Of a stretch of DNA of 31,110 nt, positions 2,683 through 29,749 are shown one piece after another. The position numbers and the translations under genes are program-made. The notes below the pieces were generated by a model. It was not told the DNA's origin, made no database searches, and was given only the letters and a program-made list of their open reading frames with translations. Each line of letters begins with the position of its first letter. Within the stretch, counting starts at the first letter, position 1. This DNA comes from a virus, in the IMG/VR virus record IMGVR_UViG_3300005045_000019, positions 1 through 31,110 of that record; one strand, written 5' to 3'.

Positions 2683-3205
2683 GCTAAGTGCTGAAAAATG
2701 GGCTGAAGTTAAGGCTAGATGGTCAGTTGGGAAAATGACTAATCGGGATATTGGTGAGATATTCGGAGTTAGTCATACCGCAATACAGCAACGTGCAGAT
2801 AAGGAATCATGGGTTAAGTTGGATGAAAATCTGGTTGATTCAGCGATAGATGCGAGCATGAAACTTTCCATACTTTCCAAAACGAACAATCTGGAAAGTT
2901 TCCATGTTAAAACAGAGATCGACCGGCACGCCTCTGATAAGGCTGAAGCTGATGAAGTGGGTATGGATATTATGCAGGCTATCAAGTTGCAGATACGCGG
3001 GGCAGAGGCGGTGGATATACAGCGCCTAGCCGCAGCTCATAAATCTGTTTATGATGGAAGGTTCAAAGTAACACCGGACACAGCAATCCAGATCAACAAC
3101 GTGCAAGATAAACTTCCGCAAAAGAAACTTTCACGCGAAGAGATTATTTCAGAGCTTGAATCTCGCGGATTGCCTGTCAGCTTAATCAATATCCACGAAG
3201 ATTAG
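2675..3205 (+). CDS. terS: terminase small subunit
   Basis: A 176-residue protein starting MARLSAEKWAEVKARWSVG. The longer frame would start inside the previous gene without a ribosome-binding site. Residues about 20-50 form a helix-turn-helix (MTNRDIGEIFGVSHTAIQQRADKE), the DNA-recognition part of small terminases. The middle is helical, as expected for oligomerisation, and the C-terminus (LSREEIISELESRGLPVSL) would contact the large subunit. It recognises the packaging site and loads the motor. It lies directly before the large subunit gene with a three-base gap. Sequence match to a specific subfamily is not claimed. Confidence 0.85.
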   Translation: MARLSAEKWAEVKARWSVGKMTNRDIGEIFGVSHTAIQQRADKESWVKLDENLVDSAIDASMKLSILSKTNNLESFHVKTEIDRHASDKAEADEVGMDIMQAIKLQIRGAEAVDIQRLAAAHKSVYDGRFKVTPDTAIQINNVQDKLPQKKLSREEIISELESRGLPVSLINIHED

Positions 3206-21778: not shown

Positions 21779-23161
21779 ATGGCATCATCGACCACAAACC
21801 TCGACTTAATTTCTCCGTCACAAGCCTCGAAAGAGATCACCGCGAACGCGCTATTCGACGCAACCAGTGTATCGGCCTTATTTGGCCGTCGTGCGACAAC
21901 AACTATTGCGCTTACATGGGGCTACTATGGCGGCGTAGTCGTTGTGGCGAATGTCCTTACTCCAGTTGCAAATGGAACTCTCACGCTGACAGCAAGCGCA
22001 ATTAATTACCTCGAATACAACAACGCAACCGGCGCAATCGCAGTAAACACGACCGTTTATGCAAATGATGCGGCGTGGTTCTCTGCATTGACGGCAGCGA
22101 ATAAATCTGCGCTGTATAAAGTGGTTGCGGGTGCGGCAACGGTTACGTCCTATGTTGACTGGCGCTTTCAAGGAATCGGCGCGCCCATCGTACAGTTCCC
22201 CATGCAATATATTGGCACATGGAACGCTTCGACAAATACCCCAACACTCGCAGCAGGATCAGGTACAAAAGGCTCGTTTTATGTAGTATCGGTAGCTGGT
22301 ACGCAGAATCTAGGCCACGGGGCAATGCTCTACAATGCGAACGATTCGGTCGTCTATAACGGGGCGACATGGGATTATATTCAGGGAAGTGTTACATCGG
22401 CGGAGATCATAGCAGCTCTCGGTTATACACCTGAAAACCTAGCGAACAAAGACGCGTTAGGTGGATATCCATCACTGATCGGCTACGCGGTAAAAATATG
22501 GAATGCGGGAAAAACATTCTATTCATCATTAACATTGGCTGCTGGAACGGCGGCGAATGTGGTGCATACCTTGCAAGCTAGGAGCGGAGTATTAGCCGAC
22601 GATACTGATATTGCAGGAAGAGTATCTCCTGCCCAATTGAATGCAGGAACATTGCCGATTACTGCTACTACAGGGACGTTTAGTGGAACAATAACAAAAA
22701 ACAACCCACCCGCAACACTAGCTAACTTCTTCACTACATCAGGGTCTACAACCAGTGCCGCATATGCAAATATCTCGAATACTGGAGCGGCGCTTGCAAT
22801 CGGTATTGAAAGTAGTGCTGGATTATCCATATTGCCTGGTTCTACTGGGTATTCATCAGTACTATACACCTATACTGCTACAGATTTAATCTTTGGGACT
22901 AATGCTATAGTTAGGGGGGTTTTCAGCGGGACGACTGGGCTATTAACATTAAATAATGGACTTGCTGTAACTGGAGCAATTAGTTCCACTACAACTATCA
23001 GATCTGGTGGATATACAGTAGCCACTCTTCCCGCTGGGACTACAGGAGAAGAGTGCTATGTAACAGATGCCACGACCCCTGCATGGAATACGGCATTAAT
23101 CGGAGGTGGTGCGGTAGTAGTCGGGGCGAGGAAGAACGCAACAGTCTGGGTAGCTTTTTAA
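21779..23161 (+). CDS. tail fibre protein
   Basis: A 460-residue protein starting MASSTTNLDLISPSQASKEITANALFDATS, a common N-terminus of phage fibres that attach to the tail tip, followed by FGRRATTTIALTWGYYGG. The middle has repeats of strand and loop, and the C-terminus SGGYTVATLPAGTTGEECYVTDATTPAWNTALIGGGAVVVGA is a fibre-tip motif seen in many phages. It recognises the host surface. The DNA becomes AT-richer from about 22500 (23 G+C of 60 at 22861-22920), like the propeller insert in the hub, so the distal part may be exchanged independently. It has its own promoter and a hairpin at its ribosome-binding site. Confidence 0.85.
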   Translation: MASSTTNLDLISPSQASKEITANALFDATSVSALFGRRATTTIALTWGYYGGVVVVANVLTPVANGTLTLTASAINYLEYNNATGAIAVNTTVYANDAAWFSALTAANKSALYKVVAGAATVTSYVDWRFQGIGAPIVQFPMQYIGTWNASTNTPTLAAGSGTKGSFYVVSVAGTQNLGHGAMLYNANDSVVYNGATWDYIQGSVTSAEIIAALGYTPENLANKDALGGYPSLIGYAVKIWNAGKTFYSSLTLAAGTAANVVHTLQARSGVLADDTDIAGRVSPAQLNAGTLPITATTGTFSGTITKNNPPATLANFFTTSGSTTSAAYANISNTGAALAIGIESSAGLSILPGSTGYSSVLYTYTATDLIFGTNAIVRGVFSGTTGLLTLNNGLAVTGAISSTTTIRSGGYTVATLPAGTTGEECYVTDATTPAWNTALIGGGAVVVGARKNATVWVAF

Positions 23162-29124: not shown

Positions 29125-29318
29125 GCCAACACCTCACCAGCCGTTTCAACCTCGACGCCTGACTTTGTGAGAGCTATCAGGTCGCATTGTGTAGCAACCC
29201 CGGCAAAGATGGTATCCCTTGCAACGTGCGAGACGGCCTGTGCCTTGTTTGTGGCCTCCACGAGCCTTGTAGTTGCGCCCATCGTTACCGCGTAAATCCG
29301 TTTATGTGCTGTTGCCAT
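29121..29318 (-). CDS. small phage protein near recombination genes
   Basis: A 65-residue protein. The start at 29318 (MATAHKRIYAVTMGATTRLVEATNKAQAV) is supported by GGAGA five bases upstream. The pattern RIYAVTxGxxTRLVEAxNxAQAVxHVAR is a small alpha/beta domain seen in phage early operons, function unknown. The C-terminal half has FAGVATQCDLIALTKSGVEVE. It overlaps the next gene as ATGA and follows the long untranslated leader and RNA element. It is the first gene after the RNA switch and so would be the first one controlled by it. Confidence 0.75.
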   Translation of the reverse strand: MATAHKRIYAVTMGATTRLVEATNKAQAVSHVARDTIFAGVATQCDLIALTKSGVEVETAGEVLA

Positions 29319-29555
29319 ATTGTTCTCCTTGTTGGTTAATATCACTCAAAGCTTCCCCCTACCCATTAAAGGGCAAAGGAAGTATCACTCCTCAAAAGAG
29401 GATGCACATGCTAACTTTCGTTAGTCCCCGGACGTGTACATTCAGCGAGTCCATCGGATTTTAGGAATTGCACCTTGCCATTTCTGGCTACCGATACCGT
29501 TTGATTCCGCGCTGCCCGGTTAGGCCCTTGATACGCTCGGAGTGCGGCGCACACG
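29319..29555 (-). other. non-coding leader between RNA element and the next gene
   Basis: No convincing gene is present here. Two small hairpins with GAAA loops occur on the minus strand (GCCA-GAAA-TGGC near 29480, and CTAAC-GAAA-GTTAG near 29415). A hairpin TCCTC-TTTT-GAGGA (about 29390-29405) and arms CTTCC/GGAAG (about 29352-29382) also occur. The stretch looks like a structured 5' untranslated region. Confidence 0.4.
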
Positions 29556-29713
29556 AAAAAGCCCCAGTAGGTTGAGAACTGTTTGATCGTCGGATAAGCG
29601 GATTCTCGGCGGAGACGTTTTTTGCTTATCCGGCACAGTTCCCAAGCTGATGGGGCTTTGCCTACGTCTCCGCCAATTACCGCAAACTCGAACCGATCAA
29701 AATTCGTGAGTGC
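29556..29713 (-). ncRNA. bistable structured RNA with intrinsic terminator
   Basis: A minus-strand RNA of about 158 bases is predicted between a strong promoter and a U-run (29560-29556). Fold 1 pairs 29659-29651 with 29566-29558 (9 bp), 29641-29635 with 29582-29576 (7 bp), and 29632-29624 with 29599-29591 (9 bp), all perfect and nested, and it is followed by U5 as in a terminator. Fold 2 pairs 29674-29664 with 29618-29608 (11 bp) and 29701-29694 with 29589-29582 (8 bp), plus two short helices (GCGG/CCGC, TCG/CGA). The 29599-29591 arm is used in both, so the folds exclude each other, or they combine as a pseudoknot. No known RNA family is recognised. Confidence 0.75.
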
Positions 29714-29719
29714 GGAGCA

Positions 29720-29749
29720 ATTATAATACGCATTATTCACTTTGGTCAA
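29720..29749 (-). promoter_or_regulatory. strong sigma70 promoter for the RNA element
   Basis: On the minus strand TTGACC (29749-29744), an 18-base spacer and a perfect TATAAT (29725-29720). It lies at the very end of the exonuclease gene, whose stop codon is between the two hexamers. The start site is near 29713. Confidence 0.7.

Follow-up and report, generated by a model that had tools for sequence, protein, structure and literature searches.

A predicted two-state RNA segment, possibly a terminator/read-through leader, behind the YqaJ exonuclease gene of an uncultured phage

The window analysed here is a whole IMG/VR virus record of 31,110 bases from an uncultured phage. On its minus strand, a gene for a YqaJ-family exonuclease comes first; about 410 bases of non-coding sequence separate it from a 65-aa ORF, which has a good ribosome binding site, and the gene for a phrog_11517 protein comes next (Table 1). 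A sigma-70-like promoter overlaps the 3' end and the stop codon of the YqaJ gene and has its predicted +1 near position 29713, about 390 nt before the 65-aa ORF. The structured element described below ends about 240 nt before the first start codon, and the sequence between them (29320-29556) folded unexceptionally, with a z score of -1.0. Kin of the 65-aa ORF were found in four relatives and make up a family of 65 to 80 aa without a Pfam or PHROG match. In freshwater phages they lie close behind the exonuclease gene and before RecT, in one of them directly between the two genes. Loci ranging from Alphaproteobacteria to Actinobacteria keep the phrog_11517 protein beside YqaJ. The AlphaFold model (AF2) of this protein has a confident beta-rich core (pLDDT 84.6). 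A label as SSB was dropped because the PDB matches of the model were not significant (best E 0.09); OB-type matches were sub-threshold only and do not establish an OB fold.

Table 1. Features at the exonuclease/phrog_11517 junction, in 5' to 3' order along the minus strand
Feature	Position	Strand	Remarks
YqaJ-family exonuclease, gene 5' of the segment	29733..30500	-	Pfam E 1e-10
Sigma-70-like promoter TTGACC-18-TATAAT	29720..29749	-	11/12 consensus, 18-bp spacer
Predicted two-state RNA segment, 160 nt	29554..29713	-	
Arm D, fold 2	29694..29701	-	partner 29589-29582
Arm E, fold 2, GGCGGAGACGT	29664..29674	-	partner 29618-29608, -21.5 kcal/mol
Arm A, fold 1, putative terminator 5' arm AAAGCCCCA	29651..29659	-	partner 29566-29558
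Arm B, fold 1, GAACTGT	29635..29641	-	partner 29582-29576
Arm C, fold 1, CGGATAAGC	29624..29632	-	partner 29599-29591
Arm E', fold 2	29608..29618	-	within fold 1 apical loop
Arm C', common to both folds	29591..29599	-	
Arm D', fold 2	29582..29589	-	mostly fold 1's 8-nt bulge
Arm B', fold 1	29576..29582	-	
Arm A' and U tract TGGGGCTTTTT, terminator-like 3' end of fold 1	29556..29566	-	arm A' is 29566-29558; U tract runs to 29556
Remaining non-coding segment as far as the 65-aa ORF	29319..29553	-	folding unexceptional
65-aa ORF, first gene 3' of the segment	29121..29318	-	AAGGAG then ATG at 29318
phrog_11517 protein, 198 aa, second gene 3' of the segment	28528..29124	-	

The first-pass annotation of this DNA had proposed a bistable RNA switch here and had named a conserved protein read from the same region as a finding that would speak against it. 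The open frame concerned (29740-29411) scored 0.04 bits per codon. For 109-codon windows of real genes the median was 0.26 and the 5th percentile 0.08; windows read out of frame went up to 0.07. The frame had no Pfam, PHROG or tblastn relative. With a score near the minimum of real genes and no protein relatives at all, the protein-coding explanation was rejected, and codon statistics and homology together indicate a non-coding segment, with a small residual doubt. A leader-peptide attenuator, which would need an ORF translated across its first arm, is not supported by this frame either, and a search for tRNA or tmRNA found none.

All the arms named in the first-pass annotation were located and paired perfectly on the minus strand. 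An independent repeat search returned E:E' (11 nt), C:C' (9 nt) and D:D' (8 nt), together with a 25-nt pair of 84% identity containing the 9- and 7-nt arms of fold 1. From 5' to 3', the order is D, E, A, B, C, E', C', D', B', A' and the U tract. Fold 1, built from A, B and C, is a 31-bp rod that leaves D' mostly in its bulge and E' in its apical loop. Fold 2 is built from D, E and additional short helices; it is a rod of 30 bp with A, B and C in its apical loop. The two folds are mutually exclusive, and substantial sharing between them is limited to C'. The earlier description of this arm as belonging to both folds was right for fold 1, where all 9 bp are paired, but fold 2 pairs just 6 of the 9 bases, and these sit in short helices. 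The design is an unusual one, in that the folds exclude each other largely by topology and trapping, with one arm in common.

In a nested model that ignores pseudoknots and proteins, the energies of folds 1 and 2 were -56.3 and -59.0 kcal/mol, respectively. The folds are thus nearly isoenergetic, and the two low-energy states expected from the first-pass annotation were recovered as mutually exclusive rods. The minimum free energy (MFE) of 29550-29713 (minus strand, 164 nt) was -62.5 kcal/mol (z -4.7, reached by none of 200 shuffles). We then asked for the best fold without any base pair common to the MFE fold and compared it with dinucleotide shuffles. This second, pair-disjoint fold had an energy (E2) of -56.3 kcal/mol and a z score of about -6.6 (-6.7), which none of 1,000 shuffles reached. 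Among 1,549 windows of the contig, put through an energy screen and then the shuffle test, the segment ranked first, and the next unrelated window scored -4.5. Relative to chance, the second fold was much stronger than in the attenuator leaders of Escherichia coli, which scored -3.7 (thr), -3.3 (his) and -0.1 (trp), the last value indicating that the measure misses some real attenuators. Forty random 160-nt windows, a small background with one window at the minimum of -4.0, averaged -0.2. Taken together, the shuffle, contig-rank and attenuator/random-window comparisons show that the second fold does not simply follow from the first. The 160 nt contain four perfect inverted repeats, each 8 nt or longer, as did none of 1,000 shuffles; a few further windows in DNA from the relatives also had perfect inverted repeats totalling at least 37 nt. 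Repeats counted by themselves therefore do not single the segment out, and more weight lies on the two-fold energy. When all loci were scanned for two folds with regression on GC, the result was uninformative, as the residuals track G+C content. On thermodynamic grounds, the prediction of a bistable RNA is well supported. Elsewhere on the contig, the second-best two-fold signal (z -4.5) was at 22921-23080 (plus strand), close to the 3' end of an ORF of 460 aa, and a cluster of perfect inverted repeats (11, 10, 8 and 8 nt) was seen at 2761-3020 (plus strand), inside an ORF upstream of the large terminase gene.

The first-pass annotation knew no RNA family of this form, and the comparison with Rfam 15 agreed: none came up at the gathering score or at relaxed E-values, at which the matches were weak, unrelated eukaryotic ones plus one sub-threshold match to Mu-gpT-DE. 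A blastn search against INPHARED phages and PLSDB plasmids gave no homologue, with short matches at E values of at least 0.4, and degenerate DNA patterns run over GTDB and IMG/VR found none. Searches of the fetched relatives' loci with nhmmer and blastn gave nothing above chance, and covariance models of each fold (R1 and R2) gave chance-level matches only in the fetched loci and about 1,200 genomes. Three of these matches were looked at and discarded: one was an unrelated GC-rich hairpin, another a conserved pyrD-like coding motif (judged by eye), and the third covered one helix only. This absence of homologues is not proof, since the covariance models were built on one sequence, the large genome searches were strictly filtered, the pattern scans need exact matches and near-identical records were possibly left out. 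With no homologue, neither fold has covariation support.

The junction itself was compared among 128 relatives carrying both the exonuclease and phrog_11517. The gap between the two genes was 10 nt or less, usually an overlap, in 96 of them and exceeded 100 nt in 28. Most of the larger gaps were examined, and each one inspected held an ORF, for an RNase-T-like exonuclease or an HNH/AP2 endonuclease (both named by eye from the sequence) or a small gene without assignment; a long non-coding segment was absent from every larger gap examined. Because the operon is tight elsewhere and the examined larger gaps hold ORFs, the structured segment has the appearance of an insertion confined to the present phage or its close kin. 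The junction after YqaJ takes accessory genes in nine of the loci, including RNase-T-like exonucleases of about 230 aa and endonucleases of the HNH/AP2 homing type, both again named by eye.

The minus-strand promoter reported in the first-pass annotation was confirmed as the sole 11/12 match on both strands of the contig. The five U residues said to follow fold 1 are present, but three of them belong to the 9-bp arm, which leaves GCCCCA/UGGGGC, with UUUUU after it, as the usable terminator core. A simple-terminator scanner with a loop limit of 3 to 8 nt did not call the end of fold 1. An intact U tract is found solely at the minus-strand end of fold 1. On minus-strand RNA, all 31 pairs of fold 1 and all 30 pairs of fold 2 form, and plus-strand RNA loses 1 and 2 of them, respectively. 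Pair counts, promoter and U tract together weakly favour the minus strand. The near-equal folding of the plus strand, and the apparent insertion at a junction that takes accessory genes in relatives, would also suit a feature of the DNA, such as a recombination or replication signal or the remnant of an inserted element, or an incidental origin, the folding of the repeats as RNA being incidental. Such an origin is very unlikely in our judgement: promoter, U tract and G-U pairs all suit minus-strand RNA, and no further copies were present in the phages or plasmids searched.

An 11/12 promoter directly 5' and a terminal U tract would also make a complete transcription unit, and no internal ORF has a coding signal. 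The segment could in that case be a stand-alone, trans-acting phage sRNA, about 155 nt long and carrying both a promoter and a terminator of its own, with the second fold as an intermediate of processing or target binding. We regard this as unlikely. The surrounding operon runs on the same strand, so that read-through would also make the RNA, a plain sRNA would not need a second fold of such strength, and no target was identified.

The order in which the folds could form was followed by equilibrium folding at growing lengths. The probability of E:E' was 0.98 from the completion of E' to an RNA end at 29554, whereas that of fold 1 was near zero until 29554 and about 0.35 with 20 more nucleotides. 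Some 50 nt before the terminator arm is made, the E:E' helix is already complete, and neither E nor E' has a competing partner in fold 1. Since E:E' is finished early and uncontested, fold 2 would be the default at any ordinary speed of transcription unless blocked. This disfavours the earlier suggestion that transcription speed could choose between the folds. Read-through would then be the default state, from which we infer that the terminator needs D or E to be blocked.

Arms E and C cross on different bases, and an H-type pseudoknot of E:E' with C:C', with loops of 31, 5 and 8 nt, is possible in its geometry. In phage T4, gp32 represses its own mRNA via a leader pseudoknot, which lies 67 nt before the start codon beside an A+U-rich run (PMC3014915). 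This precedent makes autogenous control by a downstream recombination protein attractive, which would bind the segment as a compact RNA pseudoknotted through E:E' and C:C', perhaps with D:D' as well. Both would be phage leader RNAs of recombination or replication genes with a possible pseudoknot, but the present segment differs from the gene 32 leader in its length of about 160 nt, its two states and its terminator-like end. Several points make such an RNA improbable here. The full A-B-C rod and E:E' would be hard to reconcile sterically, no PDB match of the phrog_11517 model is significant, nucleic-acid binding by this protein is putative, and the element ends far (about 240 nt) from the first start codon.

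The reading we prefer, with a probability of roughly 40%, is a cis-acting regulatory leader, lying behind the YqaJ exonuclease gene and ahead of two further genes of the phage's recombination operon, that would decide between termination and read-through. The contig's strongest promoter match just 5' of the segment and the intergenic place in a tight operon support a leader. Transcripts from the segment's own promoter, or reading through from upstream, would adopt one of the two exclusive folds. In fold 1, the long rod with its GC-rich base and UUUUU would stop transcription. In fold 2, the terminator 5' arms would be trapped in the apical loop, and the polymerase would proceed into the 65-aa ORF and phrog_11517. 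Because E:E' forms early and E is uncontested, a trans factor (a protein, a ligand or an antisense RNA) that blocks D or E would turn the operon off. The segment looks like an RNA on/off switch, and we infer the terminator/antiterminator action itself from the modelled folds. Against a leader, the distal part of the terminator is very large and there are only five U; with fold 2 as the default, a signal for fold 1 must be postulated; and a long stretch precedes the 65-aa ORF.

Long rods are also known as RNase III processing or retroregulation sites, as in the T7 early hairpins and lambda sib, which resemble the segment as long intercistronic rods near recombination or early genes whose fold may depend on the 3' extent of the RNA. 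Both folds here are rods of about 30 bp directly behind the exonuclease stop codon, and the predicted choice between them moves with the 3' end of the transcript. Rod cleavage might thereby separate or destabilise the exonuclease message, the fold depending on whether the transcript stops at the U tract or continues. We consider an intercistronic site of this kind rather improbable, as one rod would suffice.

Compared with known systems, the leader we favour resembles the thr, his and trp leaders of E. coli in having two exclusive RNA folds, one of them a U-tailed terminator-like stem, before controllable genes. It differs from them in lacking a leader peptide with a coding signal and in its arm order, which is 1-2-(1'/2') rather than 1-2-3-4. 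As in a transcriptional riboswitch, its 5' fold would sequester the terminator arms; unlike riboswitches, it has no Rfam match, known ligand logic or relatives. The first-pass annotation had offered a signal such as HK022 put as an alternative. The segment shares with putL/putR the character of a phage cis RNA near a promoter, but the put RNA consists of two local stem-loops in about 70 nt (PMC9378689), an architecture unlike two long nested, exclusive rods, and the alternative was not upheld.

A switchable leader before recombination genes, if true, would be a protein-economical way of timing recombination. In phage early operons, timing is mostly attributed to proteins (N, Q, repressors) or to simple cis RNAs (put). 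More speculatively, the segment might belong to a novel class of regulatory RNA in phages, one whose overlapping, exclusive 30-bp rods, made largely of different bases and crossing in pseudoknot order, take a one-time, co-transcriptional decision to terminate or read through in a recombination operon; we hold this to be somewhat unlikely.

Further short elements were seen in and around the remaining non-coding sequence. Its 3' half carries two perfect GAAA-tetraloop hairpins on the minus strand, GCCA-GAAA-TGGC (29477-29488) and CTAAC-GAAA-GTTAG (29411-29424). The motif GGCAAAG (29656-29662, minus strand), between arms E and A, has a complement in CTTTGCC (29372-29378, minus strand), which lies about 55 nt before the start codon of the 65-aa ORF.
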